Below, in pieces: positions 23,778-57,691 of a stretch of 64,000 bases of DNA (position 1 is the first letter of the stretch; the number at the start of each line of letters is the position of its first letter). The translations under genes and the position numbers were made by a program. The notes beneath the pieces were generated by a model that saw nothing but the letters and a program-made list of their open reading frames with translations, did not search any database and was not told the DNA's origin. The DNA is from Bacteroidaceae bacterium (lineage in GTDB: Bacteria > Bacteroidota > Bacteroidia > Bacteroidales > Bacteroidaceae). The stretch spans positions 248,001-312,000 of the forward strand of contig JAFYQK010000025.1 of the NCBI GenBank assembly GCA_017547165.1, written 5' to 3'.

Positions 23778-25319
23778 TTAATTTATTGAGTATATTGTAA
23801 ATTCAAAAATCTGTTTATATTTTGACCATAAAGATAGATTTAAGTCTATTCCATATCGTTCTTGCAGATAGGAGATCTCATCATCATTACAGATTAAGAA
23901 ATATTTTGAACTTGTATCATTAAGATTAAGATATTCGATATTATTAATATCACACATCCTTATTTCATCATTAACAATATTCTGATACACCAAAACGTCA
24001 GAACATATTATTGTTGTTTTGGACAAATCATAATCTTTACTAATTGATTCTAAAACTAAATTAGGAATTTCAAATCGATTATATTGTTCCATTTTATTAT
24101 AATCACTTCTTAAAGAGAACGTAGGATAGACAGAAAGAAAAAGTAAAATGAAAGCACAGCTCATTAAGACTTGTTTCCGAACCTTAGGTAATAATAATGG
24201 AATCGTAATAGGAATTAAACAGTAGAAGTTATTTAAATACCTAAATGAATCAAATACGTCTACATTGTCTTCTGTTATAAAGAAATATCCCCTATAATGG
24301 AATGTGTAAATACAAAAGTAGATACACCAGAGCGTCGCAATAGCTAATCCAAAATTGTATGTTTTGGATTTGCAAATATTATATGCAATTGACGAAAAAA
24401 AAATGAAGAATATTATTCCAAAGTATCTGGGTGTTACTAGCGCTTTTAAATATACAGGGGCAAGTCGGTAGAAATATGTTGGTGAAAAAGTAGGTGCGTT
24501 TATATCCTGTGATTCTATAGTCTCAATATTGAACACATTTTGTATAAATGTTAAATACGATGCAATTATAATAGCATACAATGAAATCTCTTTGAAAAAA
24601 GGTTGTATGTTATTTTTGATTCCTCCATTTCGATAGAATGAACATAGAATCGGCAGACAAACTAATGAAATATTTTCTCTTTTTGTCATTATTGCCAATG
24701 CAAATGCTGCAATGGGAGCCCAAATATGTAGATTATCATCTGTATATTTATAAAAAAGATAACAAAATGCAAGAATAACCATTCCAGAAAAGGGCTCGCA
24801 TAAAAATGAATTGCCAAAAACATTTATAGTAGGAGAAATGCAAAATAAAGATGGGGCAATCATCCAAGCATATCTTCCTTTTATACTAGGGAAGACTGAT
24901 AAAATCAAGAGTGATATAAAATTCAAGAAAGTGGTTATCGCGCTAATTAATGATAGCGAAAATCCAAATAACCTTATTGGATAGCTTAAAAATGTGGAAT
25001 AAGTAATAAAATGTCCTCCGTATGTTTGCATTAATTCTGGGTATTCTATGCTTCCTATGCCAATTCCTTCAGACAAAAAGGATGTAGTGAATATATTGTT
25101 TGCAAATAATCTTCCTAAAAATGAAAAAGCATAGGAATCTTCGTACTCTAATCCGCAAAACAAAAGTCCATAGCTATATTTATACAGAAATGTAAGCACC
25201 AGACAAAACAAAATTCGAGTACGCTTATCATCAGCGTTTATGAAGTCATTAATAAGGGAAGAACTTAAAACACATATGAATAATGATAATATAACTGTGC
25301 AAAATATATAATAAAGCAT
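23778..25319 (-). CDS. GT-C-like multi-pass membrane glycosyltransferase (candidate)
   Basis: 513 residues with about eleven hydrophobic segments in the first 400, then a soluble C-terminal tail. The first long loop contains LEYEDSYAFSFLGRLF near residue 57, an acidic E-x-D pattern like the catalytic loop of GT-C enzymes (PMT, ArnT, EmbC groups). Those enzymes take a sugar from a polyprenyl-phosphate carrier and place it on a target outside the cytoplasm. The gene is 3 nt from a DPM1-like GT2 gene that could make the donor. AT-rich relative to core genes. The specific family is not recognised; the function is inferred from topology and neighbour. Confidence 0.55.
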   Translation of the reverse strand: MLYYIFCTVILSLFICVLSSSLINDFINADDKRTRILFCLVLTFLYKYSYGLLFCGLEYEDSYAFSFLGRLFANNIFTTSFLSEGIGIGSIEYPELMQTYGGHFITYSTFLSYPIRLFGFSLSLISAITTFLNFISLLILSVFPSIKGRYAWMIAPSLFCISPTINVFGNSFLCEPFSGMVILAFCYLFYKYTDDNLHIWAPIAAFALAIMTKRENISLVCLPILCSFYRNGGIKNNIQPFFKEISLYAIIIASYLTFIQNVFNIETIESQDINAPTFSPTYFYRLAPVYLKALVTPRYFGIIFFIFFSSIAYNICKSKTYNFGLAIATLWCIYFCIYTFHYRGYFFITEDNVDVFDSFRYLNNFYCLIPITIPLLLPKVRKQVLMSCAFILLFLSVYPTFSLRSDYNKMEQYNRFEIPNLVLESISKDYDLSKTTIICSDVLVYQNIVNDEIRMCDINNIEYLNLNDTSSKYFLICNDDEISYLQERYGIDLNLSLWSKYKQIFEFTIYSIN

Positions 25320-25322
25320 TTG

Positions 25323-26015
25323 TTATTTAATTTTATATACTAAAGAATGCCATATAACAAGTAAACCATATTTTATGGATCTTTTAATGTTTATAGATGA
25401 GGACTTTTCTTCATATTTTGCAGGACAATAGATCTCCTTGATAACATATTTTTTTCTTATAATTTCAAGTAGCATTTGATTATCAAATATAAAATCATTG
25501 GAGAGAGAATTATAATCAATAGATTCAAGAACATGGGATCTGTAGGCTCTATATCCCGTGTGGTACTCACTTAAATTTTGTTTATATAAGGAATTTTGTA
25601 TTTTTGTTAAAAATCTATTCGCATAGTATTTGTAGAAGGGCATTCCTAAATATAATGCTTCTTTTTTGTACATCATTCTTGAAGCTAAAACCACATCAGC
25701 ACCTTCATTGAATTGTGTGATTATTTCAGGTATTAGTTTAGGGTCGTACTGATAATCTGGGTGTAACATAATAATTATGTCGGCACCTAAACTTAAAGCC
25801 TTTGTATATAATGTCTTTTGATTACCTCCATATCCAATATTATGGTCGTGAAGAATTACATGATTAATCTTTAAGGATTTTGCTACTGATATAGAATTGT
25901 CATTGCTGAAATCATCTACGTAGATAATTTCATCAACTACTCCTTGGGGAATTGCATTTACAACATCTTCTAAAGTATCTTGACAATTATAACCTGGAAG
26001 GACAACTATATTCAT
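25323..26015 (-). CDS. GT2 family glycosyltransferase, polyprenyl-phosphate sugar synthase type
   Basis: 230 residues, GT-A fold. N-terminal nucleotide-binding strand MNIVVLPGYNCQDTL, IIYVDDFSNDNS near residue 33 (the D-D-x-S pattern), GYGGNQKTLYTKAL near 63, and the metal-binding segment MLHPDYQYDPKLIPEII near 83. FYKYYANRFLTKIQN and YHTGYRAY are typical of the DPM1-like branch that loads hexose onto a lipid phosphate. No C-terminal membrane helices, as in soluble DPM1. It is 3 nt from the GT-C-like gene downstream and 67 nt from hxsA upstream. Confidence 0.8.
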   Translation of the reverse strand: MNIVVLPGYNCQDTLEDVVNAIPQGVVDEIIYVDDFSNDNSISVAKSLKINHVILHDHNIGYGGNQKTLYTKALSLGADIIIMLHPDYQYDPKLIPEIITQFNEGADVVLASRMMYKKEALYLGMPFYKYYANRFLTKIQNSLYKQNLSEYHTGYRAYRSHVLESIDYNSLSNDFIFDNQMLLEIIRKKYVIKEIYCPAKYEEKSSSINIKRSIKYGLLVIWHSLVYKIK

Positions 26016-26038: not shown

Positions 26039-26078
26039 GGAGGCAGTTCAAAGATATTCCACCTTAAACTGCCTCCAA
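26039..26078 (-). terminator. hxsA terminator overlapping the glycosyltransferase promoter
   Basis: Arms GGAGGCAGTT (plus, 26039-26048) and AACTGCCTCC (26067-26076) form a 10-bp stem. On the minus strand it is followed by a T-rich stretch, 7 nt past the hxsA stop. The loop holds TATCTTTG (minus, 26049-26056), and TTG lies 19 nt upstream at 26076-26078, so a full Bacteroidetes promoter for the GT2 gene is nested inside the hairpin. Confidence 0.65.
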
Positions 26079-26082
26079 TAAG

Positions 26083-26334
26083 TTAGCGGCTTGAGAAGTG
26101 AGAACGATGAGAACTGTGCGATCTGTGTGAGCTGTGCGAATAGTGCCCCTTAATAGAAGAAGCAACATTTGAAGCTACATCCAGTATAAGCGCAGAACCA
26201 TTGTTCACCTGCTCCTTAATCATCTCAATTGCTTTGCTTTCAGAGAAAGAAGAGACAACATTTTTGGTGACAGAAGCAAAGCTGCTTGTTGCTGCAAAGA
26301 ATGCAGAAACAACAAAGAAAAGAACTCTTTTCAT
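26083..26334 (-). CDS. hxsA: His-Xaa-Ser repeat peptide precursor HxsA
   Basis: 83 residues. Residues 1-20 form a Sec signal peptide (MKRV, hydrophobic core, cut likely after SFA). Residues 64-81 are six exact tandem H-x-S triplets: HYS, HSS, HRS, HSS, HRS, HFS, ending SR. This is the signature of the His-Xaa-Ser system target protein, which is encoded with radical SAM maturases HxsB and HxsC and small protein HxsD; all four are present here. The C-terminal repeat is the likely modification zone and the product is probably exported. The chemistry of the modification is not derivable from the sequence. Confidence 0.85.
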   Translation of the reverse strand: MKRVLFFVVSAFFAATSSFASVTKNVVSSFSESKAIEMIKEQVNNGSALILDVASNVASSIKGHYSHSSHRSHSSHRSHFSSR

Positions 26335-26403
26335 TTGACTTACTGTTTAATAATTAATAAATTAAGTTAATTAACTCTGCTTGTATATTATTGTAAATAT
26401 ACT

Positions 26404-27516
26404 CTAGATTTTTTTTATGTGTGAACTATGATACTTTTTATTTGATGCAAAGAATCCTCCGCACTGTTCTTTTAGTTTACATCCTTCACAAGTATCTAAA
26501 TAGATATCTTTCCATTCTGATATTGATTGTACGGCCGTGTCACGAATTTGTTCGGGTAGCACACATAGTTGAGCATTGTATATGGCTGCTTGCATACCTC
26601 TAGAACGAAGAATTTCAATTGCTTCAACTAGCTGTTTATTATAATCATATGGGTCAATCCATAGGTCATGTATATTCTCCTCAGCCATGCCTATAGTTTC
26701 CATTTGCATGAATGCAACATTGCATACGAATGGGAAATTATGGTATATGTAGTCTGCTAATTGAGGCAGACGTTTATATGTTTTTTTATGTATGACTACT
26801 CGTATGCCAATTTTAGTGCCAAACAACGCTAAATTATACAATCCCTGTACGGTTTTGTAAAAGGTGTTTGCTCCTACAATCTCATTATGTAACTCTGCTA
26901 CATCCGAAAATATTGGAATATCGATTTGCAAATCATAGCAATTGCATAGAGCTAATTTCATGGCATAATCACGATCGGCAAACTTAACACCATTTGACAA
27001 TATGCTAATTGCTGCCTTTGGGGTATATTTTTTTATTTGTTTTATCAAGTCAAACAATTTGTCACCAATCAACGTAGGTTCACCTCCAGTAATACCCACT
27101 TCTTTTGTTTTTTTGTCAAACAAAGAAATAAGCTTCATATTAAAGGGAGTCATATCTTCTTCATGAACGACCGGAGGTTGTGGGCACATAATACATCGAT
27201 GATTGCATCTTCCTGTTGCGAATATAGCATTAGATGTTGACTCAATTTCATAAAGAAATGTTATTTCTCCTTCTTTATTAATTGTAACAACATCACCTTC
27301 ATGAAATTCTTTTAAATCAACACCTCCTGCTATTGGGCGATTACCCTTTATATATACCATATTTGTTATAGTAGCAGCATAACCACTTGGGCATAATTCT
27401 TGCTCTCCTTGTACCAAAATATAGTCTTTTCGTCCGAAGATATTCTTTCCTGTTAGTGTTATTTTGCCAAGAATTGTGTCTTCAATATTAAGAATATTTG
27501 CATGTATCTGTTTCAT
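26404..27516 (-). CDS. hxsC: His-Xaa-Ser system radical SAM maturase HxsC
   Basis: 370 residues. Radical SAM 4Fe-4S motif CNHRCIMC at residues 104-111, followed by GITGGEPTLIGDKLF near 155, the GGE motif that binds SAM. A C-terminal Cys pair region, CEGCKLKEQCGGFF near 345, could hold further iron-sulfur centres. The ~95 residues before the motif are unusual for a radical SAM protein and match the HxsC layout. It lies 6 nt after hxsB and 69 nt before hxsA. It probably modifies the H-x-S repeat with HxsB. Confidence 0.88.
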   Translation of the reverse strand: MKQIHANILNIEDTILGKITLTGKNIFGRKDYILVQGEQELCPSGYAATITNMVYIKGNRPIAGGVDLKEFHEGDVVTINKEGEITFLYEIESTSNAIFATGRCNHRCIMCPQPPVVHEEDMTPFNMKLISLFDKKTKEVGITGGEPTLIGDKLFDLIKQIKKYTPKAAISILSNGVKFADRDYAMKLALCNCYDLQIDIPIFSDVAELHNEIVGANTFYKTVQGLYNLALFGTKIGIRVVIHKKTYKRLPQLADYIYHNFPFVCNVAFMQMETIGMAEENIHDLWIDPYDYNKQLVEAIEILRSRGMQAAIYNAQLCVLPEQIRDTAVQSISEWKDIYLDTCEGCKLKEQCGGFFASNKKYHSSHIKKI

Positions 27517-27522
27517 AACATA

Positions 27523-28953
27523 TTACTTTATCCATGACCAGAAAATTTTGATTGTTTCAGGATCCCCTTCGTGTAACTTTTCCATCAAATAATGTATGAT
27601 GGCTTTAGTCTTTATGCACATTTCGTTTGTAGGTCTATGACCAACTACATCACCTTGTACAGAATAGTTGCGAACAGGATCAGCACCACAATATGGTTGA
27701 AATACACAATCTGCACATCCAGGAAGACATTCGGTACATGAATTTTCAATAATCTCGTGCAACAGCTTGCCATTAAACATCTCTTGGAATGTATTTTCAT
27801 TAACATTTCCAAGTTTGAAATAATAGTTTTTGAATCTAGCAAGCATTCGACCTTCGTCAGCAACATAAACACTTCCATCATAGTCGTAAATAGCACCTGC
27901 AATACCAACACCTGCTGGGGATTGTAAATCAACAAATCCTGTTGCAAATGGAGTTAAAATTCGTTTTAGTAAAAGTGCGGCAAATCCTTCTACAAAGAAT
28001 GTTCCTTTCTTGTTTATCTCTATAATATAATCTAATCCTTCTTTAAAGTTTTCTATAAACTCCTCTATTGGATAAGCAACTTTTTCTTTGTATTCACTAG
28101 CAAAGCCATAGGGGTTCAATGAACGGAGAAAAATATTGTTAAATCCAAGTCTGATATATTCATCTATAATTTCTTTGTATCTTCCAAGACTATATTTAGA
28201 TGTTGTCATCAATGCCGAAACACAATCTGCATCCCCCCATATGTCACGTACCATTTTTACGTTTTTCTCAAATATCTCATGGTGATCAAGTTTTTTATCT
28301 TGTAATGGCCTATTTGTATCATGCAAATCTTTAGGACCATCCAAAGACGTAGAGATATCACACTTATGTTTTTTAAGATACTTAACCATGTCTGGGGTGA
28401 GCAAAGTCAGGTTGGTGCAAATAACAAAGCTCAAATCACGCTTCTTGAATAGATTAACCCACTCTGCTTCCTCAATGATATATTTGACCATCTCAAAATC
28501 AATTGAGGGATCTCCACCTTGAAATTCAATTTTGATATATGGGGAAGGACCATCAAATATGCATTTAACAATGTTTTTAGCGGTTTTTTTTGTCATATCC
28601 GCGGAATGATCCGACTTTTCATGACGCTTAACTTGGCAATAGATACAACTTGAATTACATCTAAGTGTAGGTACGACCATGTGTAGAGATGTAAAATCTC
28701 TCAAGATACTTTTCTTTGTTCTAAACTTAGTAGCAAGCATTTTTACTACATCTTCCACTTTGTCTGTGGTTGCTATTTGCTTGGATGCCAAATCATAGAA
28801 GAGATCTGATTTCGAATCAAGTTCATGAGTAACAAACTTTTCAAAATCAGCATTTTTTAAAAATATATATTCACCAACGTCGTTAGTTAACAAATATTCC
28901 TCGTTACTGAAATGGTCAAAGCGAAAAGGAAGTATAGTATATTCGTATTTCAT
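27523..28953 (-). CDS. hxsB: His-Xaa-Ser system radical SAM maturase HxsB
   Basis: 476 residues. Radical SAM motif CNSSCIYC at 99-106, then KIEFQGGDPSIDFEMVKYI near 148, where GGD takes the place of GGE. A SPASM-like C-terminal region follows with CTECLPGCADCVFQPYCGADPVR near 410-430 and a last Cys in TNEMC. SPASM enzymes act on ribosomally made peptides. Its first codons overlap the hxsD stop by 4 nt (ATGA), indicating coupled translation. Confidence 0.9.
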   Translation of the reverse strand: MKYEYTILPFRFDHFSNEEYLLTNDVGEYIFLKNADFEKFVTHELDSKSDLFYDLASKQIATTDKVEDVVKMLATKFRTKKSILRDFTSLHMVVPTLRCNSSCIYCQVKRHEKSDHSADMTKKTAKNIVKCIFDGPSPYIKIEFQGGDPSIDFEMVKYIIEEAEWVNLFKKRDLSFVICTNLTLLTPDMVKYLKKHKCDISTSLDGPKDLHDTNRPLQDKKLDHHEIFEKNVKMVRDIWGDADCVSALMTTSKYSLGRYKEIIDEYIRLGFNNIFLRSLNPYGFASEYKEKVAYPIEEFIENFKEGLDYIIEINKKGTFFVEGFAALLLKRILTPFATGFVDLQSPAGVGIAGAIYDYDGSVYVADEGRMLARFKNYYFKLGNVNENTFQEMFNGKLLHEIIENSCTECLPGCADCVFQPYCGADPVRNYSVQGDVVGHRPTNEMCIKTKAIIHYLMEKLHEGDPETIKIFWSWIK

Positions 28954-29270
28954 TTATTTACAGGTTTAAATGCTTCTTCTACTATTAAATCACGAATATA
29001 GCCAAAATCTTTATTGATATTGTGTCTTATTTCTTGATCGATTAGGTTATTGCAAAATTCTTTAACAACAGTTTGGCTTATATCAGATTTGTCTTTAGAT
29101 TCAAACAAAATACTAACTGTGTTTTCTTCACAACTTTCATGAATATAGTATTTACCAGTGTATTTATAACAAGTAGCAGTAATTGCTTCTTTAGAATACA
29201 ATTTTAAATCAAAAGAAATCTTGAGCTTATTGCCATCAATAACATTAATGGGGAATTCTAGATTTGCCAT
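28950..29270 (-). CDS. hxsD: His-Xaa-Ser system protein HxsD
   Basis: 106 residues, no signal peptide or membrane segment. The pattern LYSKEAITATCYKYTGKYYIH near residues 25-45 and the end segment FCNNLIDQEIRHNINKDFGYIRDLIVEEAF match the small HxsD family. Its role is unknown; a peptide-recognition or chaperone function for the maturases is only a guess. First gene of the hxsDBCA run. No clear consensus promoter was found in the ~190 nt between it and the structured RNA. Confidence 0.85.
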   Translation of the reverse strand: MANLEFPINVIDGNKLKISFDLKLYSKEAITATCYKYTGKYYIHESCEENTVSILFESKDKSDISQTVVKEFCNNLIDQEIRHNINKDFGYIRDLIVEEAFKPVNK

Positions 29271-29460
29271 GTCTATTATAATTTTGTATGTGTATATATG
29301 AATTTATGATGTAAAATATATTTTATCCCTTCTTTAAAGTTCTTTTGATTAACTAAATTGTCTATCCCATAACAACGTGCCGCAAGTTCAACTATATAAC
29401 ATTTATTGTTAGGTTAATCTGACTCCTGGATTAATGGTCAGTATTGTTATGTAAACATAT

Positions 29461-29783
29461 ACAAAAAAAGCGTGGAGCCAGCTCTGATGCTCGTTCCACG
29501 ATTCAAAGGCTCTCGCATTGCCCGATTAGTCGAAACGAGCAACGCTGAAAGCCCCACGCCGATGAGTATATAATGCACACCCAATGGAACATTGTATGTT
29601 GACAATAGCCAATGAGGGCTGTATATAAACATCCCAAGGGGCGTCCCCGTTGCTTTGTCCTTGACTAATCGTTTTGAATTTGCGAGATTCTTGAATCGTC
29701 AAAACCAAAGCGTTCAGTTACGCCTTTTTATGATATGTGTCATGCCCGCCTCTACCCTTAGGGGCTTTCAGCAATGGCATTGA
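29461..29783 (-). ncRNA. Large structured non-coding RNA, copy A
   Basis: Homologous to the element at 46281-46633, with alignable blocks: AAAGGCGT...ACGCTTTGGTT, GGACAAAGCA-CG, ATTATATAC-CAT-CGGCGTGGGGCTT, CGTTGCTCGTTTCGAC and a final CACGCTTTTTTTGT. The 3' domain closes by GCGTGG/CCACGC around an inner stem GTTGCTCGTT/AACGAGCATC. The oligo-T end acts as a terminator, and a TACATTTG box precedes the predicted 5' end. No shared reading frame. The family is not recognised with certainty; known Bacteroidales RNA families should be tested. Confidence 0.75.
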
Positions 29784-29789
29784 CAAGTG

Positions 29790-29797
29790 CAAATGTA
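29790..29797 (-). promoter_or_regulatory. -7 element (TACATTTG) for structured RNA copy A
   Basis: TACATTTG on the minus strand. A CTG, not TTG, lies 20 nt upstream, so the -33 half is weak. It gives a transcript start near 29783. Confidence 0.5.
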
Positions 29798-29918
29798 GGT
29801 ATTTTATTTCTAATAGTCAGTCTTTTTCGTGAAGAATATTCATATCTATTATAAAAAGAAAGAGGAACCTTTAGATTAGACCTTGCCAGTCAAGTGTAAA
29901 GTTTCAAAAATGTAAGAA

Positions 29919-30035
29919 GAGAAAGCATCAGTTTGTGTTGCCCTTCAGTTGGCGCGCGAACCAGATAATAAAGGTAAAAATATTGTTGTTATTTTGCCTG
30001 ATACAGGAGAACGGTATTTGAGTATGATGCTGTAG
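29919..30035 (+). pseudogene. Decayed 3' fragment of a cysteine synthase gene
   Basis: The frame ending at the TAG at 30033-30035 reads [20 protein letters not shown] then [12 protein letters not shown]. This matches the C-terminus of cysteine synthases, including the PDTGERYLS signature, and the intact cysK at 22706-23638 end-aligned. Everything before about 29919 is missing. Many differences from the local cysK show that it is a remnant of another copy rather than a recent duplication. It marks the right edge of the accessory block. Confidence 0.85.
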
Positions 30036-30112
30036 GTGCAAGGGACCTTATTTGTATTTGATCTAATTTGGAACAATAATTAGAAGCATGCTGAGTTACA
30101 TGCTTGCCACAG

Positions 30113-30140
30113 TTCAAATTTGAGGTGTCAAATTTGAGGT
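30113..30140. repeat. 14-bp tandem duplication
   Basis: TCAAATTTGAGGTG occurs twice in direct succession. Short and without other context; it lies in the non-coding stretch between the cysK remnant and the exported hypothetical gene. Confidence 0.8.
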
Positions 30141-30334
30141 GTCAAGAATTTTCTCTTCTTGAGAACTTTGTTAAAAAGGTGAAGAATCTGGTATATGTCA
30201 AAGATGCAAAGAGTAAGTCAAAAATCTCTTAGCAAAATGTCTTGATTGCTTATGTTCTTAATAATCAGTGATATAGCTATTAAGTGGGTGCCTGAAATAT
30301 TCTTTAAACGAAAGGTTAGCGGTCTTTAAAAAAG

Positions 30335-30435
30335 GTCTCCCTAATCTTTCGCTCAAGACTCCCTAATCTTTGACACGTAAGATAGTAATCTTTTGCTCCT
30401 AAGATTATAATCTTCGGTTCGTAAGATAGTAATGT
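30335..30435. repeat. Degenerate 22-24-bp tandem array
   Basis: About four and a half units of a pattern like (a)GTAATCTTTnGCTCnTAAGA: CCCTAATCTTTCGCTCAAGA, CCCTAATCTTTGACACGTAAG, AGTAATCTTTTGCTCCTAAG, ATAATCTTCGGTTCGTAAG, AGTAATG. Units abut without spacers, so it is not a CRISPR array. The rest of 30036-30540 shows no reading frame with family features. Confidence 0.7.
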
Positions 30436-30542
30436 GTTTAAGGTATGGTTGTGAAGGAATGATACAGTAAATATTTTTTACCGCATTAATAATTACTTTA
30501 TTATTTGTAGAGTGGGAGAGTTCTTAGGTAAAAGTTTCCCGA

Positions 30543-31001
30543 CTATCTTTGTTGCTTCCGAGCGGCAGCTATAGAGTCTTCTCGCAATTGGCGCATTATG
30601 GCTTCGGTAAGTTCGTCCTCGTATGACTTTGCTGCCTCAAGTTTTTGGATTGCTTCAGCGGTGCGTTTGCGATTCTTCTCTTTGCGGCGTTCCTTCCATG
30701 CTGTAGGGTGCATTATGTAGTCAGTAGCTTTCTTGCCAATAATATCAGAGATGCTTTTTTGCCTTGGTGTGGTGAGACCGTTGTTTAAGGATTTGTTGAT
30801 GGCATCCTTAACTCGCAGTTCTTTATTTGCCTTGATTTCAATTTCCTCCAGTGTGTCTGTGAGTACATACGAGGTGTCTTGCTTTGTTTTGATGCTGTCG
30901 GAATAGCCAGATACAGTCATAGTGGAACTTGATGTTGTGGTGTGTGACATCAAGGTTATTGTCAGTAGGAAAAGTGTAATTATGTAGGTAAACTGTTTCA
31001 T
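30543..31001 (-). CDS. Exported hypothetical protein
   Basis: 152 residues, family not recognised. Residues 1 to ~20 (MKQFTYIITLFLLTITLMS) form a signal peptide. A Ser/Thr-rich segment follows (~20-55), and then a conserved-looking middle LKVKDAI-like part (ELRVKDAINKSLNNGL, SISDIIGKKATDYIMHP). The C-terminal ~50 residues are very basic and acidic in alternation (WKERRKEKNRKRTAEAIQKLE), consistent with a helix or coiled coil. Stands alone before polA on the same strand. Likely real because of the signal peptide and codon pattern. Confidence 0.6.
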   Translation of the reverse strand: MKQFTYIITLFLLTITLMSHTTTSSSTMTVSGYSDSIKTKQDTSYVLTDTLEEIEIKANKELRVKDAINKSLNNGLTTPRQKSISDIIGKKATDYIMHPTAWKERRKEKNRKRTAEAIQKLEAAKSYEDELTEAIMRQLREDSIAAARKQQR

Positions 31002-31119
31002 TTATATCTGTATATACATTCATTCACCTGTATGCAATACCATAAGGCTTGTTTTTTCGTTGGTAAAGATATGATTATTCCTAAAACTACGCAAATAATT
31101 TTCAATAATTAAATCATTG

Positions 31120-46243: not shown

Positions 46244-46274
46244 TTGGTATTTCTCTCACTTAATCGTACCTTTG
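46244..46274 (+). promoter_or_regulatory. Promoter of structured RNA copy B
   Basis: TTG (46244-46246), 20 nt, TACCTTTG (46267-46274), a full consensus match that gives a start near 46281. Confidence 0.75.
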
Positions 46275-46280
46275 TCCTTG

Positions 46281-46633
46281 TCTCACGCCGACTGCGCCCT
46301 TTATGGACGCGGGGGGGCGTGGGGCAAGACATATTAAAAGGCGTTTACTACGCTTTGGTTCTGACGGTTAGAAATCGTAGGAAAATTTATTTCTGTTAGG
46401 AACAAAGCAGCGTGAATGTCCTTCGTGGGTATGTTATACACATTCCCCAGTTCTGCATTGACAGCCAATGGTGTATCCGTACACCTGCGGTTCGATATGT
46501 AGGATTCATGGGTGAATTATATACACATATCGGCGTGGGGCTTCGACGTTGCTCGTTTCGACAGAAAGGGCAATTTCCTACGAGCCTCTAACCGTGAAGC
46601 GAGCGACAGTGCAGGGCTTCACGCTTTTTTTGT
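46281..46633 (+). ncRNA. Large structured non-coding RNA, copy B
   Basis: About 350 nt from a consensus promoter to an oligo-T end (46625-46631). 5' hairpin CACGCC/GGCGTG, then AAAG(G)CG/CGCTTT. The 3' domain closes by GCGTGG/TTCACGC around GTTGCTCGTTTC with GAAGCGAGCGAC. The same helices form in copy A (29461-29783), and several differing bases keep pairing (A-U versus G-U, G-C versus G-U). The centre of the two copies differs in length and sequence. No reading frame shared. Remaining sequence 46634-46840 shows nothing I can assign. Confidence 0.75.
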
Positions 46634-46840
46634 GTCTTAAGGTAACCTTATTTGATAACACTCGGTTGCCGTAGTCCTCGACCGGGAAGGTGGGAATGCC
46701 ATGCACATTGGATCAGCATTGCTTTAATCCAGGACAAAGCGAAGACCCCTACATCGTATTAGAATAGGTCTTTCATTACGCTAGGATAGCAAAGAGATAG
46801 AACGCCAGTATGCAGAGTCATCTTCCCCGAAACGAGAACT

Positions 46841-47863
46841 ATGGCTATCGAAGTAGACATATTGGAGGATTACATCTTCCAACTCTCTCCCGACCTATTG
46901 AACACACTGCTCAAAGACCACACCACGAGCAAGGAGGGAGAGCCACAGCGCAATATCTTTTGGGGAACCTCCGACTATGCCCATCTGGGCGATGGCTACG
47001 ACTATCATTCCCCCATACTCCCTCATCTTATCACGGGCGACAACGGGCATGTCATCATGCCTCGTATTCTCAAGAGTCGCGACACCCAGTCGGTACGCTC
47101 ACGCGATATGGCCGAGGTGTTCACCCCTTCGTGGATTTGCAACGCACAAAACAACCTTATCGACGAGGCTTGGTTTGGCCGCAAAGAGGTGTTCAATACC
47201 GAACACACCGATGAGCAAGGCCGACACTCATGGACTGCTACAACGGAGAAGATTACCTTCCCCGAAGGTAAGACATGGCGCGACTACGTGCGTGACACCC
47301 GACTCGAAATTACCTGTGGCGAAGCACCCTATATCGTCAGTCGTTACGACACGACGACAGGCGAAGCCATTCCCTTGGAGCAGCGCATCGGCTTGCTCGA
47401 CCGCAAACTGCGCGTCGTGAGTGAGAATACCACCGAATCGGGCGAATGGCTCGAATGGGCACAAGTTGCCTACAAGAGCACCTACGGCTACGAGTGGCAG
47501 GGCGATAATCTCCTGATTGCCCGCGAAGCCATGCTCATCTCCTTTATCGAATACTATGAGCGGAAGTTTGGCAAGCAGCCACTACTCAAGTCGCTCAACT
47601 TTATCGCCTACATTATCTCGTGGAATGTGTGGCAGATGGATGGGCTCAAAGGGGTAGTCCCCGATACCTGTGGCGACAAGATAGAGATAGAGCAAACGCT
47701 CTTCGATGGCACCATAGAGCGGATAATCCCTTGCGAGGGATGCGCCAAAGATGACATTCGTCGCCACAACGGCACCTATTGCTTCATCAAGGATTGGCAT
47801 GCCAAAGACCCCACGACGGGCCGAATGGGAAAAAGAATCCGATTTATCGACCTCATCAAATAA
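46841..47863 (+). CDS. Methyltransferase-like protein of a restriction-type locus (no NPPY motif)
   Basis: 340 residues. AEVFTPSWICNAQNNLIDEAW near residue 91 resembles the region that opens N6-adenine methyltransferase domains of type I M subunits. LEITCGEAPYIVSRYD near 152 sits where the SAM-binding motif I is expected, but its DPACGSG-like glycines are changed. YGYEWQGDNLLIARE near 215 resembles a later motif. No (N/D/S)PP(Y/F/W) motif occurs anywhere, so catalysis by this protein alone is unlikely. It ends 7 nt before the large helicase/methylase gene and is surely its partner. Called a restriction endonuclease subunit M in similar loci. Confidence 0.65.
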   Translation: MAIEVDILEDYIFQLSPDLLNTLLKDHTTSKEGEPQRNIFWGTSDYAHLGDGYDYHSPILPHLITGDNGHVIMPRILKSRDTQSVRSRDMAEVFTPSWICNAQNNLIDEAWFGRKEVFNTEHTDEQGRHSWTATTEKITFPEGKTWRDYVRDTRLEITCGEAPYIVSRYDTTTGEAIPLEQRIGLLDRKLRVVSENTTESGEWLEWAQVAYKSTYGYEWQGDNLLIAREAMLISFIEYYERKFGKQPLLKSLNFIAYIISWNVWQMDGLKGVVPDTCGDKIEIEQTLFDGTIERIIPCEGCAKDDIRRHNGTYCFIKDWHAKDPTTGRMGKRIRFIDLIK

Positions 47864-47870
47864 TGGTACT

Positions 47871-50800
47871 ATGAAATTCACCTCATTACTGAAACTGAAG
47901 TTGATCTATGTGTTCCGCATCAATGATGCTGCACACGAAGGTTGTTTGAAGGTGGGCGAAGCCACTTGCGACAGCGACGATGTGTTTGACCTCGCTCCCA
48001 ATAGCAAGGCACTCAACGAGTCGGCCAAGAAACGCATCAACCAATACACACAGACGGCAGGCATTGCTTATGACCTCCTGTATACTGACCTCACGATATA
48101 TAACCATAAGAAGAAGGGCTTGTGCTCATTCAACGATAAGGAGGTACACAATGTGCTGGAGCGTTCGGGCATCAAGAAGAAGGTGTTCGATACAGTGAAC
48201 AAAGCTAACGAATGGTTCATCGCCGACCTCGACACTGTGAAGCGAGCCATTGCGGCTGTCAAGGAGGGACGCGGGTCGCTCACTACGGCAGAGATAACCC
48301 ACCACAGAACGCCCATCATCTTTCGCCCCGAGCAACGCAAGGCCATAGACGACACCAAGAAACAATACAAAAAGGGTAACCAAATGCTATGGAATGCCAA
48401 GATGCGTTTTGGTAAGACACTATCTGCGTTGCAAGTAGTAAAGGAGGTGAACTTCAAGCGTACGCTGATTCTTACCCATCGTCCAGTAGTGGATAGTGGT
48501 TGGTTTGAAGATTTTGGCAAGATATTCTATGACCGCCCAGAATTTGCTTATGGTTCTAAGAACAATGGTGATTCTCACTCATCACTTGAGGCAAGAGCCA
48601 GTCAAGGGAAATGCCAGTATGTCTACTTTGCTTCGATGCAAGACCTTCGCGGTTCGGAACTCGTGGGCGGCAACTTCGACAAGAATGATGAGGTGTTTGC
48701 CACCAAGTGGGACTTTATCATTGTAGACGAAGCGCACGAAGGAACGCAAACTGAATTGGGCAAGGCGGTGATGACCGAACTCGTGAAGGAGAACACCAAG
48801 GTATTGCGCCTGTCGGGTACACCATTCAATCTGCTTGATGAGTTTGCCGAAGGTGAGATATACACTTGGGACTATGTGATGGAGCAGCAAGCTAAAGCCA
48901 CTTGGGACGAACTCCACTTTGGCGACCCCAACCCCTATGCTTCGTTGCCAACAATGAATATCTACACCTATGACCTCGGCCGATTGCTGAACGATTTTGC
49001 AGATGAAGATATAGCCTTCAACTTCCGCGAGTTCTTCCGTGCCAATGATGAAGGAAAATTCGTTCACGAAAAGGATGTGTGGGCATTCCTCAACCTGTTG
49101 ACCAAGGAGGATAAGGAGAGCTGTTACCCCTTTGCCAATGAGGAGTACCGCAACATATTCCGTCACTCCCTGTGGATAGTACCAGGTGTAGCGCATGCTC
49201 GTGCGCTGAGCGCGATGCTACAAAGTCATCCAGTATTCCAACATTTCAAGATAGTCAATGTGGCTGGCGACGGCGATTTGGAGGAGGAGAGCAAAGATGC
49301 ATTGGCAGCCGTAGAGGAGGCTATCGGTAGCGACCCTGATGCTACGCGCACCATCACTCTCTCTTGCGGACGACTCACGACAGGTGTCAGCGTCAAGGCA
49401 TGGACAGCTGTATTCATGCTTTCAGGCTCGTACAATACAGGTGCGGCAAGTTATATGCAGACCATCTTCCGTGTGCAGACACCGGCAACCATCAATGGCC
49501 GTGTGAAAGAGCAGTGCTATGTGTTCGACTTTGCCCCCGACCGCACGCTGAAGGTGATAGCCGAGACCGCCAAGATATCATCGAAAGCGGGCAAGACCAG
49601 CAGCGATGATCGTAAGGTGATGGGTGAATTCTTGAACTTCTGCCCCATCATATCGGTCGAGGGCAGTAAGATGAATCCTTTCGATGTGCCCCGCATGCTC
49701 GAACAACTCAAGAAAGTATATGTAGAGCGTGTCGTGCGCAATGGCTTTGAGGACAAGAGTCTGTATAACGATGAGTTGATGAAGCTCAACGACTTGGAAC
49801 TGCAAGCATTTGATGACCTCAAGAAGATTATCGGACAGACCAAGGCCATGCCCAAGACCAATCAGGTAGACATCAACAATCAAGGCTTGACCGATGAGCA
49901 ATACGAAGAACTCGAATCACTGGAGAAGAAGAGCAAGAAGAAAGGTAAGGACAAGCAACCCTTGACAGAGGAAGAAAAGGCACGTCTCGAAGAGTTGAAG
50001 AGGAAGCGTGAGAATCGCGAGGCAGCCATCTCCATCCTCCGTGGCATCTCTATCCGTATGCCTCTGCTCATCTACGGTGCTGAGGTCAGCAACGAAGACG
50101 AGGAGATCACCATTGATAACTTCTCATCGCTTGTCGATGACCAGTCTTGGGAGGAGTTCATGCCCAAGGGAGTCACCAAGGAGAAGTTCGATAGCATCAA
50201 GAAGTATTACGACCCTGACATCTTCAGTGCAGCGGGTAAGCGCATCCGTGCGATGGCTCGTGCTGCCGACAAACTGAGCGTAGAGGAGCGCATCGAGCGC
50301 ATTACCGATATCTTCAGTACCTTCCGTAATCCAGACAAGGAAACAGTACTCACTCCATGGAGAGTGGTTAATATGCATTTGGGCGACTGTTTGGGAGGCT
50401 ACAACTTCTTCGAACAGGGATACGATACATCATTGACCGAGCCACGTTTCATTGATAAGGAAGAGGTCACAGCCAATGTCTTCAATGAGGACTCGCGCAT
50501 CCTTGAAATCAACTCCAAATCGGGTTTGTATCCCTTGTATATGGCCTACAGCATCTATCGTGCAAAAGTAGCCAGCCTGCTCACCTCTCCGTCAAGCATT
50601 GAGGAGGAGCAACGGATATGGGACAAGGTGGTAGCTGAAAACATCTTTGTCATCTGCAAGACCCCGATGGCCAAGAGCATTACCAAGCGCACCCTTATAG
50701 GCTTCCGCAAAGCCAAAGTAAACACTCGGTATTTCGAGGACCTGATCAATCAAATAAAGAACAAACCGGAGAACTTCGTGGCCAAAGTAGCCAAAGGCAG

Positions 50801-51815
50801 TTCATACTGGAAAGCAATAGATAACGACAATATGAAATTCAATGCAATAGTGGGTAATCCGCCGTATCAAGTGATGGATGGAGGAGCAGGTGTTAGTGCC
50901 AAGCCTGTATATAATCTATTTGTAGAAATAGCCAAACTCATAAAACCGGATTACATTTCTATGATTATGCCCTCTCGCTGGTTTGCAGGAGGAAAGGGAT
51001 TGGATTCCTTTAGAGAAGAAATGTTGTCGGACAAACGCCTTAGTCACATTTTTGATTTTATAAATGCCAAAGATTGTTTCCCTACTGCAAGTATTGGAGG
51101 TGGAGTAAACTATATCTTGTGGAACGCCAAACATAATGGTGATTGCAATATCACCACCATCCAAGGGGATATGCGTGACTCAGAAAAACGTCCATTGGAT
51201 CAGTTTGCCGTATTCATTCGCTACAACTCTGCTATACACATTGTCAACAAATGTAGAGCAAAGGAAAACTTTGATTCAATAGTGAATACTCGTAATCCTT
51301 TTGGCTTGTCTTCAAATGTTCGAGGAGACAAATCAGGTGAGCTACGTTTGATTTCAAGTGCGGGAATATCTTGGTTACCTAAATCTGCAGTGCCTACTTC
51401 CAATCCTTTGCTGTCCAAGTATAAAATTCTGATGAGTAAAGTGACTGCAGAACACGCAGGAGAACCAGACAAGAATGGTCAGTTCAAAATTGTTTCAAGA
51501 ACAGACATTATCGGACCGAACGATGTTTGTACTGATTCCTATCTGATTATAGGTGAGTCAGAACATAAATATATTGTAGAGAATGAATACAAGTATATTC
51601 AAACTCGTTTCGCAAGATTCCTATTGATGTTAGCAGTTTCTTCTATCAATCTCTCACCAGACAAGTTTCAATTTGTCCCAATCCAAGACTTTACCAATCA
51701 GAGTGATATAAACTGGAATGAAGTAGTCTCAGATATCGACAAACAATTATACGCCAAGTACAATCTAACCGAAGATGAAATCGAATTCATTGAGAAGATG
51801 ATAAAGCCGATGTAA
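47871..51815 (+). CDS. GIY-YIG nuclease / SF2 helicase / Eco57I-type methylase fusion protein
   Basis: 1314 residues from MKFTSLLKLK at 47871; the frame extends 40 codons into the previous gene, but this start is just 7 nt after its stop. N-terminal GIY-YIG-like part (LIYVFRIND, GCLKVGEAT, then KKRINQY and FNDKEVHNVL, residues ~10-100). SF2 motor: Walker A-like NAKMRFGKTLSAL near 174, VDEAHEG near 284, RLSGTPFN near 313, TIFRVQTP near 529. A charged linker (KKSKKKGKDKQP near 685). Methylase: ILEINSKSGLYPLYMAY near 876 as motif I and GNPPYQVMDGG near 994 as motif IV, followed by target-recognition-like sequence. Probably restriction or phage defence. Confidence 0.8.
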   Translation: MKFTSLLKLKLIYVFRINDAAHEGCLKVGEATCDSDDVFDLAPNSKALNESAKKRINQYTQTAGIAYDLLYTDLTIYNHKKKGLCSFNDKEVHNVLERSGIKKKVFDTVNKANEWFIADLDTVKRAIAAVKEGRGSLTTAEITHHRTPIIFRPEQRKAIDDTKKQYKKGNQMLWNAKMRFGKTLSALQVVKEVNFKRTLILTHRPVVDSGWFEDFGKIFYDRPEFAYGSKNNGDSHSSLEARASQGKCQYVYFASMQDLRGSELVGGNFDKNDEVFATKWDFIIVDEAHEGTQTELGKAVMTELVKENTKVLRLSGTPFNLLDEFAEGEIYTWDYVMEQQAKATWDELHFGDPNPYASLPTMNIYTYDLGRLLNDFADEDIAFNFREFFRANDEGKFVHEKDVWAFLNLLTKEDKESCYPFANEEYRNIFRHSLWIVPGVAHARALSAMLQSHPVFQHFKIVNVAGDGDLEEESKDALAAVEEAIGSDPDATRTITLSCGRLTTGVSVKAWTAVFMLSGSYNTGAASYMQTIFRVQTPATINGRVKEQCYVFDFAPDRTLKVIAETAKISSKAGKTSSDDRKVMGEFLNFCPIISVEGSKMNPFDVPRMLEQLKKVYVERVVRNGFEDKSLYNDELMKLNDLELQAFDDLKKIIGQTKAMPKTNQVDINNQGLTDEQYEELESLEKKSKKKGKDKQPLTEEEKARLEELKRKRENREAAISILRGISIRMPLLIYGAEVSNEDEEITIDNFSSLVDDQSWEEFMPKGVTKEKFDSIKKYYDPDIFSAAGKRIRAMARAADKLSVEERIERITDIFSTFRNPDKETVLTPWRVVNMHLGDCLGGYNFFEQGYDTSLTEPRFIDKEEVTANVFNEDSRILEINSKSGLYPLYMAYSIYRAKVASLLTSPSSIEEEQRIWDKVVAENIFVICKTPMAKSITKRTLIGFRKAKVNTRYFEDLINQIKNKPENFVAKVAKGSSYWKAIDNDNMKFNAIVGNPPYQVMDGGAGVSAKPVYNLFVEIAKLIKPDYISMIMPSRWFAGGKGLDSFREEMLSDKRLSHIFDFINAKDCFPTASIGGGVNYILWNAKHNGDCNITTIQGDMRDSEKRPLDQFAVFIRYNSAIHIVNKCRAKENFDSIVNTRNPFGLSSNVRGDKSGELRLISSAGISWLPKSAVPTSNPLLSKYKILMSKVTAEHAGEPDKNGQFKIVSRTDIIGPNDVCTDSYLIIGESEHKYIVENEYKYIQTRFARFLLMLAVSSINLSPDKFQFVPIQDFTNQSDINWNEVVSDIDKQLYAKYNLTEDEIEFIEKMIKPM

Positions 51816-51819
51816 AAGT

Positions 51820-51848
51820 AATCGCCGCAAACCTGGTTTGCGGCGATT
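51820..51848. terminator. Hairpin between convergent genes
   Basis: AATCGCCGCAAA / TTTGCGGCGATT with a 5-nt loop, directly after the helicase-methylase stop and 39 nt before the end of the convergent dtcC. There is no long T tract. Confidence 0.6.
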
Positions 51849-51886
51849 GGGGCAATAGTCTCATTAATGAGAAAAGTTGTCTAAGC

Positions 51887-53131
51887 TTAATATGATAATT
51901 CATTACGTATTATATGTCCAGCAAAAGCTGCAGAAGTATACATACAATAATCTTGATAATTGTCAGTTTTTTGTATATCTGCGAAATCTGAGACAGATTT
52001 AATAAGACATGTGTATTGTGGTCTTGGATGTGCACTGTTATTCGCAGCAAAGAACACTCCATAACCTTCCATTTCTATCCCTAATAATTTTCTGCAATGT
52101 GACATTATTTTTTCGATTTCCATTTTACTCGACAACACTGCTGGAACAGAAGCTATAGGTCCTAACCTAACATTCAGTTTAGTTTGAGGTTTGGTTGTTG
52201 CATTATAGCTCTCTTCTATATTATTAAGAAGTTCTCTATTTGTTGCTAATCGCTTAATAATTGCACACATGTCAGAGTTTAATGGAAGTTCATGAAAGTC
52301 TGGATAAAAGATATCTGTACCTTGTTCGTTTGTTTTGATTTTACCACTTGCACCATCCCATACCTTTTCAGCTACCATTATATCACCCAAATTAATATCA
52401 TCTTTATTCACTCCTGCTGCAATTCCTGTCATGAATAAATATCTAGGTCGAAAGTTATATATAACTTTAGTCGTCAATGCAGCGGAGGCAGTACTCGCCA
52501 TTTGTAGAGCATAGCATGTCACTATTCTTATTGTCTTTCCAGAATGATGTGTGACTTTTTTCACGTAATATATTGTAGATTTATCTGCAGGAATATTATA
52601 CTCTTCCCATTCTTCTAAACCAAAAACTTTTCGAACATATCTATTTTCTGTTTCTAAAGCATTGATGATTGCAACATCGAAATCGTATTCTTCTGTATTT
52701 TGTATACTTCGTTGAACTTTTAATAAGAATTCGACCTTATTCTTTAATTTTTGTTTCCATTCATCGTTATTTTGCTCATATACAATATAGGCTAATAGTA
52801 GGTTACTAAAATAATCCCTATACTTTGGATCTGCATTATGACAATACGTGATTCCGACAATACTATATGGCATTTTTATTGAATCTTCATCTGAAAGTTC
52901 TCGCAATAGCCAAATAGCATTATCTGGTGATGGGTCGTCACCATATCTCAATGGTAAATATAAGTCTAAAATAGCTAAATCATATTGCTTTTTCTGCATT
53001 TTTTGTACCGCATCTTCTGCCGATACTGCTACATCAATATTTCTTGGGTTGATTTCCTTAAATTCGCAAAGTAACTCCTTGTACTTTTTTACCTTTTCGG
53101 AGGTGTCGTCAATTATTATTATTCTCAACAT
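51887..53131 (-). CDS. dtcC: Detocs effector DtcC: receiver domain fused to nucleoside phosphorylase
   Basis: 414 residues. Residues 1 to ~130 form a response-regulator receiver: acidic pair in IIIIDDTSE (8-9) and the phosphoacceptor D56 in LAILDLYLP. Residues ~165-414 are a PNP/MTAN-fold domain: FDVAIINALETE, FMTGIAAGVN near 235, GDIMVAEKVWDG, GIEMEGYGVFFAA near 355 and the catalytic Asp in KSVSDFAD near 388. In the Detocs family this effector is switched on by phosphotransfer and destroys ATP by cleaving adenine from it, halting phage growth. It overlaps dtcB by 23 nt. Confidence 0.85.
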   Translation of the reverse strand: MLRIIIIDDTSEKVKKYKELLCEFKEINPRNIDVAVSAEDAVQKMQKKQYDLAILDLYLPLRYGDDPSPDNAIWLLRELSDEDSIKMPYSIVGITYCHNADPKYRDYFSNLLLAYIVYEQNNDEWKQKLKNKVEFLLKVQRSIQNTEEYDFDVAIINALETENRYVRKVFGLEEWEEYNIPADKSTIYYVKKVTHHSGKTIRIVTCYALQMASTASAALTTKVIYNFRPRYLFMTGIAAGVNKDDINLGDIMVAEKVWDGASGKIKTNEQGTDIFYPDFHELPLNSDMCAIIKRLATNRELLNNIEESYNATTKPQTKLNVRLGPIASVPAVLSSKMEIEKIMSHCRKLLGIEMEGYGVFFAANNSAHPRPQYTCLIKSVSDFADIQKTDNYQDYCMYTSAAFAGHIIRNELSY

Positions 53132-53558
53132 TTTGTAGTAGTTTTTTTAAATTATCTTTCCATTCTTCATCCAACTTATTATACTTAACGTGACCTAAAT
53201 AGTTCTTTCCGCAACAATTATAAATACGATCACTAATTTCTTCGATTGTTTCATTGTTGAAAGTTTCATATTGCGTTAATACAGCACACTTAAATTTAAC
53301 ATTTTCATCTAATAACTCTCGTACAATTATTTCTCCTCCATTTTTAAAAGATTGTCCGCCTCCTCTGCCATCTGTCTTATCAAAGTTTGGAATAGTCATA
53401 TCTAGGAGTATTAAATCATATTGATTATTTACTCCTTGTTGGACTCCACTTTCTATTGACATTCCGGTATCAATAACTATATTCTTAAAAGAAGACTCTA
53501 AAAAAGAAACGACACTATTACGCTTGTAGTCATCGTCCTCCACAAATAAAATTCTCAT
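53109..53558 (-). CDS. dtcB: Detocs stand-alone receiver DtcB
   Basis: 149 residues, a single receiver domain with no output domain: acidic cluster FVEDDD (7-10), phosphoacceptor D53 in LILLDMTIP, and an Ala-Val-Leu-Thr beta-4 segment CAVLTQYE. In Detocs this protein is thought to draw off stray phosphoryl groups and so prevent accidental activation of the effector. It overlaps the kinase gene by 4 nt (ATGA) and dtcC by 23 nt, which fixes stoichiometric co-translation. Confidence 0.83.
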   Translation of the reverse strand: MRILFVEDDDYKRNSVVSFLESSFKNIVIDTGMSIESGVQQGVNNQYDLILLDMTIPNFDKTDGRGGGQSFKNGGEIIVRELLDENVKFKCAVLTQYETFNNETIEEISDRIYNCCGKNYLGHVKYNKLDEEWKDNLKKLLQNVENNNN

Positions 53559-56500: not shown

Positions 56501-56923
56501 AATTGCCCAAAATGAATAACTTATATCTTTATTAATCTTATTAAGTATTTTACGGGCGTCATCATAATTACCGGTAATAAAAGATGAGTCAACTTGTGCT
56601 TTATACTTGAGATATAAATTGATATCTTTACTATGCCTTTTTATCGCATACACCAATTTACCAATACAATCAATAGTTGAACTTTTAGGTAAGATTGGAG
56701 TTCTATATAAAGCTGTTTCATCCTTTCTTATTAGGTAAGACAAAGATAAAAGCCCTTTATAAGTAATGGGAATTCTAGAGTAAATATAATTTAACTCATA
56801 ATAGTTACAAATATTTAGAGCGTTATAAAGAATTTTTTTCTTATCACTATTATTTTGCTTTATTTGAGCTAAAATGCTATTTGCTTTTTTCTTATCTAGT
56901 TTTTTCAGAATAACATTATCCAT
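53555..56923 (-). CDS. dtcA: Detocs sensor histidine kinase DtcA
   Basis: 1122 residues, no membrane segments. The first ~680 residues are helical and repeat-like, with TPR-style periodicity (for example DDARKILNKINKDISYSFWA), fitting a cytosolic sensor. Around 725-800 lies the dimerisation region with STRIRHGTLVNQLRNHFEG; H766 is the likely phosphoacceptor. The C-terminus is a GHKL ATPase: N-box-like LYDMFYDILNNILFYEQ, FLKIRITNP, and GGRSRMEGNSG at 1071-1081. The sensed phage cue is unknown. Very AT-rich compared with the methylase genes of the same island. Confidence 0.82.
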   Translation of the reverse strand: MDNVILKKLDKKKANSILAQIKQNNSDKKKILYNALNICNYYELNYIYSRIPITYKGLLSLSYLIRKDETALYRTPILPKSSTIDCIGKLVYAIKRHSKDINLYLKYKAQVDSSFITGNYDDARKILNKINKDISYSFWAIAYEIKIDRLQYGVQKAIETHNKFFHRNNSAIFQKFCNAAFHTSSLEYTTDIEKKIFHKGTGDFSCFNNILQAHFFAYKGVSEGIWFCTDMNSSIIDLYNNFIIYLPNLEKDTIQNEEFRFFLEEILSIVEDPYLRKICFLYNISKSKPKEDAYRQIILKNYLSRNFQYVVDNSLDYIEFNPLDIEILCIYIKSCIVLNHNELEVEKDDSIIQQIKYHLYNIYSSDSDVSYHYTKIKGICQSLFHIEGIRYLYSSIVALENNNLWNLCNETWKYSAYLNIGDASFYKDKESKKHYLYSLGLESILSDIFDSINHPLSIDCYELSIGGQNWEYVSQKIISDYKNGEFLQFLSRPVTSYIFDYYVEKYRYEDAIIFYVNHLINCNSTEIQVKKESIDKILKDHERLVLHIPLELAIFYHSMNVEIDTIYLTYKQYLRFCEVKKASELQISGDKRQEYFLSNVVSQRVITLHVLKFKTIEQVMDERSDICTNLYNYFGHRKYLDEISVIMRDKQILALNKQVVDNKIYVDVQSIRDNELDEAKTLFKMYEQSASTELEIIQNSDIKQLVENLKSMGYEISFISEQYEKNQEKIDYQYDILERIFIHVRDQFLYNPKSGLDNYLSTRIRHGTLVNQLRNHFEGENLITNKKGGKYSPNDYWPEMLGIEGNIAVQCVERFLSFSEQIDCIIFKIKDEYVQVYTEENSQNQHASFNYDIVHFREGIKQLQARTELNSYDAIISEMINILWQHTDKCLIHIRNYLTEVQETMIEALHSIEKDITFFITKNNPMWAPFHDAVTRCVNNIQEDFQVVSKWFNRSNSIDFDFTIRQVIDTCLSFINRNNRTILKAEVETNSLSEIHGRYFTTLYDMFYDILNNILFYEQHHEVGNTCKIVIDEDEGFLKIRITNPIDTYDMAILQQKVSEINSNLQKMFIGGRSRMEGNSGCIKIFNAVHNHLGSRTNKYINSVENDTFIVDINIELKPIRK

Positions 56924-57075
56924 AGTATAAAATTCATTTATTAATACCTTTCAATAAGATAAAAAAGTAATAAAACTTACAAAATACGATAAAGTTCCAA
57001 ACATAAACATCCTTTAGATTTATTTTTCGCTGTACAATTGACGAAAACACATTCTCCCCAATATGTTACAAAAAA

Positions 57076-57690: not shown

Positions 57691-57691
57691 A

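Follow-up and report, generated by a model that had tools for sequence, protein, structure and literature searches.

A type I hxsDBCA operon of a Bacteroidaceae bacterium is preceded by a conserved structured leader RNA, probably of the attenuator type

The His-Xaa-Ser (HxS) systems covered by the models TIGR03976-TIGR03979 were reportedly described by Haft and Basu (reference 10 of PMC9062424). In attenuator and processive antitermination leaders (UpxY, LoaP) a terminator stands ahead of the gene and a second structure competes with it. Here a stretch of 64,000 nucleotides (nt) from a Bacteroidaceae bacterium (assembly GCA_017547165.1, genome G000 in our sample; contig JAFYQK010000025.1, positions 248,001 to 312,000), called the window below, was analysed. 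It carries a hxsDBCA system of the known kind, which is likely to modify a small peptide destined for export. Upstream of the system lies a leader RNA of about 340 nt that has a promoter motif and can form either a terminator hairpin or, in competition with it, a rod-like fold. HxsB has been annotated previously, and HxsB and HxsC appear as putative maturases of the HxS motif in the accessible passages of PMC9062424; thousands of candidate structured RNAs were reported in PMC8040213, and no such leader is named in the accessible passages of its main text. Neither an experiment on HxsB or HxsC nor a description of the leader was evident in the literature searched, most subscription journals lying outside its coverage, and the leader is apparently undescribed. 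The likely reading, in our view, is that a leader RNA of the attenuator type controls hxsDBCA, a maturation operon belonging to a Bacteroidales sub-type. It is this leader, with a function predicted from sequence, that makes the locus valuable.

The four open reading frames (ORFs) were found on the minus strand in the order D-B-C-A, with the places and lengths given in an earlier note on this DNA: HxsD at 28950..29270 (106 amino acids, aa), the radical S-adenosylmethionine (SAM)/SPASM-like maturase HxsB at 27523..28953 (476 aa), the second radical SAM enzyme HxsC at 26404..27516 (370 aa) and, as the next gene after hxsC, the HxsA-like repeat precursor at 26083..26334 (83 aa). The search against TIGR03976-TIGR03979 proposed in that note bore out the first three proteins, all of which exceed the curated NCBIfam cut-offs (HxsD, TIGR03976, 84.2 bits vs 50; HxsB, TIGR03978, 632.5 bits vs 370; HxsC, TIGR03977, 370.9 bits vs 267.9), while the precursor failed TIGR03979 with 37.2 bits vs 121.65, a result that by the criterion of the note speaks against it. 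The locus therefore resembles the described systems in these three proteins and in the adjoining HxS-repeat precursor, and differs from them in its gene order and in the low score of the precursor.

With the HxsB model at E <= 1e-80, matches were obtained in 15 of 393 genomes of the order, 10 of 201 of the family and 2 of 395 of the phylum, the window's own being included in each count; of the two from the phylum, the window's own HxsB alone scored over the cut-off. The alignment of 29 HxsB proteins (the window and 28 further loci) separated type I (21 loci with the window), type II (seven loci) and one outlier, L054, with 26% identity. By this alignment and by its layout the window operon is of the Bacteroidales sub-type, type I, in which hxsD-B-C is usually followed by a short precursor and HxsC has 370-387 aa where it is whole. 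A precursor was found at 16 of the 21 type I loci, with lengths of 81-138 aa as called by the ORF finder, so the short export-ready precursor that the earlier note had singled out is ordinary for the type. It lies between hxsD and hxsB in L045 and about 3 kb further on in L049; in L017, L020, L038 and L046, where it was not found, a contig end is close by. In type II the order is precursor-D-B-C, the precursor has 217-342 aa and a centrally placed repeat, and HxsC has 289-296 aa (373 in L043). The domain PG_binding_1 was present in two of the three type II precursors scanned; the 83-aa window precursor, in contrast, has no such C-terminal peptidoglycan-binding domain. Two of the 13 same-genus genomes listed matched; the locus is of type I in the window genome and of type II in G511, a pattern consistent with gain, loss and transfer. 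No larger unit shared between the window and L018 was seen, since the DNA likeness stops at 26040, just past hxsA, and at 29805, at the leader.

Some further features of these relatives were observed. Second precursor-like proteins with unlike N-terminal parts and a similar tail of HxS units, H-[YF]-S-S included, lie inside the hxs operons of L034 (9414-9851) and L049 (7420-7992). Two type II loci, L042 (9682-15407) and L052 (9679-15324), have upstream on the same strand a run of kinase, VWA, PP2C-type and unknown genes (judged by eye), a possible phosphorylation-hxs operon. HxsB relatives were also seen on 411 plasmid records, 317 of them from Klebsiella and 327 predicted to be conjugative.

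The leader occupies 29448..29786 on the minus strand, upstream of hxsD; it was not mentioned in the earlier note. At its 5' end lies TACATTTG (29790..29797, minus strand), with the pattern TAnnTTTG, which we take to be the Bacteroidota -7 box, and at its 3' end a terminator hairpin, CGTGGA/TCCACG with a U-run (29463..29500, minus strand). The fold of the window copy has -126.6 kcal/mol and a z-score of -6.58. Altogether 80 leader copies were studied, 40 extra loci having been hand-picked from the best-scoring family matches among those listed, and the fold alignment was made from 28 copies picked, before any pairs were counted, because a promoter motif lay close to where one was expected. T-A..TTTG is invariant in all 28, which were themselves chosen for the motif; in the unselected set 62 of the 80 copies had TAnnTTTG at a distance of 200-255 nt upstream of the core, against 0.025 expected per interval. 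The consensus fold comprises 51 pairs, with 97.1% of the cells paired. Changes on both sides occurred in 161 cells (49.8 +/- 5.5 in shuffled alignments, 12-23 with slid partners), and 22 pairs were changed on both sides (16.0 and 5-9, respectively). That the leader exists as a conserved RNA with a structure is thus well supported. A leader peptide was considered and rejected, because many other copies, as judged by eye, lack the ATG that the window copy has within GGGATG.

In 25 of the 28 copies the 3' hairpin forms 6-8 pairs, counted from the base upwards, and its stem is kept with some paired changes, as the variants CGTGGA/TCCACG, CGTGAAGC/GCTTCACG and CGCGGGA/TCCCGCG illustrate; seven cells of the stem are doubly changed, vs 1.2 in shuffled alignments. 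The 5' strand of the terminator also pairs upstream (columns 121-126 with 377-382), and column 377, itself part of the terminator, covaries with column 126 without a miss (GC 17, AU 8, UA 3). In the single-sequence fold of the window copy AAAAAGGCGU is paired with ACGCUUUUU, which means that the U-run is hidden in the rod; the A-run ahead of GCGT is kept in nearly all 28 leaders, again by eye. An intrinsic terminator and an overlapping alternative helix are thus both present, with strong covariation for the rod and modest covariation for the terminator stem. Two exclusive states, of which one contains a terminator, are characteristic of attenuators. Unlike the known attenuator, UpxY and LoaP leaders, one conserved RNA of about 340 nt is here common to unrelated genes and has no match in Rfam. 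Transcription would start at the TAnnTTTG promoter near 29797 and yield the leader, and by default the hairpin at 29500-29463 would terminate the transcript. When the long rod, the strands of which overlap the terminator stem, forms in place of the hairpin and the U-run pairs with the upstream A-run, the polymerase would read into hxsDBCA. The leader would then represent a new class of attenuator leader with hxs as one client.

An own promoter motif and a terminator would also suit a self-standing small RNA gene acting in trans, with the downstream genes using other promoters. We regard this as unlikely, because the distance to a start codon on the same strand is nearly constant and TAnnTTTG follows within 70 nt after the element in just 3 of the 80 copies. 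Moreover, the pairing of the U-run with the upstream A-run (window copy; other copies by eye) suits readthrough and is less suited to a finished small RNA. A start codon lay 50-80 nt after the leader in 44 of the 80 copies and in none on the 5' side, as compared with 136 of 1600 random points (8.5%) drawn from the same loci, genes included; ATG starts of ORFs of at least 80 aa were counted. The longest ORF starting within 400 nt was on the same strand in 79 of the 80 copies. At four hxs loci the count took a longer, later gene, the true hxsD starts lying 68 (L018), 37 (L049), 40 (L034) and 23 nt (L033) after the leader; in L017 the distance is 153 nt.

The window genome has six copies of the leader by blastn and seven by the covariance model R1, which matches the window leader at 29455-29583. 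Applied to the window and 29 hxs loci, R1 recovered five founder copies and two new sense matches, in L034 (E 5e-9) and L033 (E 4e-4), both directly upstream of hxsD, as well as two weak antisense matches overlapping known copies; a profile search agrees with the R1 matches at the hxs loci. The DNA at 29455-29805 is alike in L017 and L018. With stricter filters the leader was present in 66 of 101 family genomes, at 1-15 copies per positive genome, and in 19 of 198 order genomes, the window's own included. Rfam 15 gave no match to the leader (29200-31100 of the window, both strands, E up to 5), the sole match in this interval being a snoRNA family at 30912-31023, under its gathering score. Mobility of the leader was considered as well, but at blastn sensitivity no match was found in 72,556 plasmid and 50,697 phage records.

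Such a multi-copy element, for which no ligand or factor is known, might also be repeated DNA (like repetitive extragenic palindromic, REP, or miniature inverted-repeat transposable, MITE, elements) that lies near genes by chance and regulates nothing. This explanation seems improbable to us, since the long RNA fold covaries, a promoter motif stands at the 5' end, and the orientation of the element and its spacing to start codons are those described above.

Returning to a regulatory leader, the genes that follow it were surveyed. The 80 copies gave 73 downstream proteins, L103, L113, L129 and the hxs loci L018, L049, L034 and L033 having been left out, and 70 of these were scanned (without L095, L115 and L128). 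Within the families listed (the first 25 of 51 for Pfam, the first 25 of 79 for PADLOC) there were seven BspA-type LRR proteins, four DUF4595 proteins, three SNF2/ResIII helicases and two VWA proteins, and by PADLOC type II and III methyltransferases, TerY, SspB, AbiEi and HKD+Snf2. By these families the clients of the leader are accessory, exported and defence genes, hxs included. In our estimate the chances are about even that the leader is a new Bacteroidales RNA class, a rod-versus-terminator switch through which one signal or antitermination factor would turn on a whole accessory regulon of defence and surface functions. The leader stands before each proposed member of this regulon, namely hxs, restriction-modification, AbiE, SspB, TerY, a helicase, a surface protein of the BspA type and a further radical-SAM peptide operon.

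In L100 (1690-3125; read partly by eye) the leader stands before two short Cys-containing peptides with a signal like that of the twin-arginine translocation (Tat) pathway and a radical SAM gene, likely another peptide-modifying operon. The second leader copy in the window (46266..46639, plus strand) precedes a gene at 46841 that resembles type II methyltransferases (PADLOC MTase_II, 7.6e-124). It opens a defence island (46266-58972) with a type IIG restriction-methylation protein, a PDC-M60A/C-like pair, one member of which has receiver and PNP_UDP phosphorylase domains, and an AbiLi/AbiLii-like (AAA_21/RloB) pair.

The presumed substrate of the operon begins with a signal peptide (26272..26334, minus strand, about residues 1-21, with a predicted cleavage site), Sec-like and marked by a hydrophobic stretch at residues 4-23, and the N-terminal parts of the other type I precursors are hydrophobic alike, by eye. 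The core (HxS)6 (26092..26145, minus strand) covers residues 64-81; its six exact triplets, starting at 64, 67, 70, 73, 76 and 79, are those counted in the earlier note. A six-frame scan of the window returned 350 lone HxS, no runs of two to five and a single period-three run of six. Ser codons of the TCN and AGY kinds are mixed within the run, therefore it is the amino acids that are kept and not a DNA repeat. The x position is free, as found in 152 units of 22 precursors (S 83, Y 24, R 23, G 9, V 4, T 3, A 2, Q 2, F 1, K 1). In this count H and S are fixed by the definition of a run, and only precursors with runs of at least five were used, which leaves out L039 as well as the second precursor in each of L034 and L049. 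All 16 type I runs end 2-3 residues short of the C terminus and the repeat closes with H-[Y/F]-S-S, the last unit being H-Y-S in 15 of them and H-F-S in the window precursor.

The motif ALIL (26182..26193, minus strand, residues 48-51) lies 16 residues ahead of H64. When the most aliphatic tetrad was sought among the 34 residues preceding the repeat, one located 16-20 residues ahead of the first His was the top scorer in 14 of the 16 primary type I precursors; in L051 SLIL at 18 is not the top scorer, and L045 deviates. Likewise, in the 90-aa precursor on a Methylobacter plasmid FVLE precedes the first His by 16 residues and HVSSRY forms the C-terminal end, and a type II-like precursor of Hymenobacter has LVLK at a similar place. 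This aliphatic motif is taken as a putative recognition site.

The precursor remained below the cut-offs of all HxsA models, with 23.8 bits vs 48 for HxsA2 (NF038296), and is formally no HxsA. Its length and C-terminal repeat are nevertheless those of HxsA2, and two of the seven type I relatives scanned pass that model (L019, 52.1 bits; L031, 61.6), the failures being L018 (26.4), L034 (31.3), L045 (21.1), L051 (22.4) and L035, for which no match was reported. By its sequence features it is a divergent HxsA2-like variant, and it is still the substrate candidate because of its position, its repeat and its relatives. The tail is His-rich and exported, and no mass data on HxS were evident in the literature searched, hence one might see in it an unmodified metal-binding segment, with HxsB and HxsC acting on another target. 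We give this little credence, since an HxS precursor lies inside the stretch read at 16 of the 21 type I loci (a contig edge cuts short four of the remaining five), and an HxS precursor also adjoins hxsB and hxsC on plasmids of Methylobacter (a short one) and Hymenobacter (a long one).

As regards the enzymes, the Cys motifs pointed out in the earlier note are present as CxxxCxxC in both and are conserved in the aligned relatives. The HxsB triad C99xxxC103xxC106 occurs in 29 of 29 proteins, and C413, C416, C422 and C446 in 28; the HxsC triad C104xxxC108xxC111 together with C318, C343, C346 and C352 occurs in 27 of 27. The radical SAM domain PF04055 was detected in the two enzymes with 51.1 and 47.0 bits, and Pfam SPASM in HxsB with 21.1 bits, just under the cut-off of 21.5. 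The four conserved C-terminal Cys suggest that both enzymes probably hold auxiliary clusters, like cross-linking or oxidising maturases. HxsC has an N-terminal extension of about 70 aa, its model match starting at residue 71. The closest solved relatives of HxsB by sequence are the radical SAM protein 5wgg, which we take to be the CteB-type maturase of SCIFF (six cysteines in forty-five residues) peptides, and the anaerobic sulfatase maturases 4k36 and 4k37; unlike these, HxsB is paired with a second radical SAM enzyme and has a repeat as its presumed substrate. HxsD was modelled by AlphaFold2 as beta-beta-alpha-beta-beta with a 35-residue helix (mean predicted local distance difference test score, pLDDT, 86.7). 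It also matched MecA weakly, in the C-terminal part of that protein (24.3 bits, E 2.2e-5, cut-off of 214 not reached), which gives a lead towards a MecA-like adaptor; a sequence search of the PDB with HxsD returned chance-level matches only.

On this basis HxsB and HxsC would modify the His and/or Ser of each HxS unit while the precursor is cytosolic and unfolded. The aliphatic motif ahead of the repeat, and probably HxsD as well, would guide the two enzymes, and the modified peptide would exit via Sec. Anaerobic sulfatase maturases act before export, and by analogy it is a fair inference that the modification here would likewise precede Sec export.

Two genes, also absent from the earlier note, follow the precursor on the same strand: a glycosyltransferase family 2 (GT2) protein resembling polyprenyl-phosphate sugar transferases (25323..26015, minus strand, 230 aa; PF00535, 66.3 bits) and a multi-span membrane protein (23778..25319, minus strand, 513 aa). 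The latter gave no NCBIfam or Pfam match at E 1 and chance-level PDB matches only; its possible GT-C role has as its sole basis EYEDSYAFSF near the first spans, presumably a GT-C motif. Relatives of the membrane protein were found in 4 of 201 family genomes (the window's, G456, G474 and G435, the latter three of one genus), and in the order draw of 386 genomes only in the window's own. In all four family genomes, thus in two genera, it adjoins hxs (window, L047, L048 and L059; the contig of L059, from G435, starts inside HxsC and continues with the precursor, GT2 and membrane protein), and a GT2 relative follows HxsA also in L047, L048 and L059. The outer flanks of the window and L048 differ. 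In the window genome the pair may glycosylate HxsA, adding a sugar outside. That it serves a surface polysaccharide and merely shares the place of the operon is a serious possibility that we put somewhat short of even: the pair is not beside most hxs loci, and in a search without a positive control the genomes of the nearest hxs relatives gave no match to the membrane protein, yet this protein, rare as it is, is linked to hxs wherever the family genomes have it.

Several observations weigh against a leader-controlled maturation operon with a downstream glycosylation step. Besides the shortfall of the precursor with both HxsA models, no HxS run was found in the 17 kb read around hxsDBC of L037, which comes from a 1.2-Mb, 99% complete genome (G091). 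The leader is present at only 6 of the 21 type I loci and at none of the seven type II loci, so hxs does not depend on it, and in L049 the match is limited to the 3' part. Four of the nine copies from which R1 was built come from hxs loci, and the window hxsD starts 185 nt after the leader, where about 65 nt is usual. In the terminator stem two pairs are doubly changed vs 1.0 in shuffled alignments, a value reached in 127 of 500 shuffles and weak when taken alone. Finally, in a search made without a positive control, the membrane protein was unmatched in the genomes of L017, L018 and L019, whose HxsB proteins are 93-94% identical to that of the window.

Being compact and having a presumed substrate of 83 aa, the operon lends itself to working out the chemistry of HxsB and HxsC. 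Placed before many accessory genes, the leader may be their shared on/off switch. If this is true, it would tie many unrelated accessory operons of the family to a single RNA-based switch, testable with one reporter, and co-regulated defence and surface genes would become findable from sequence alone.

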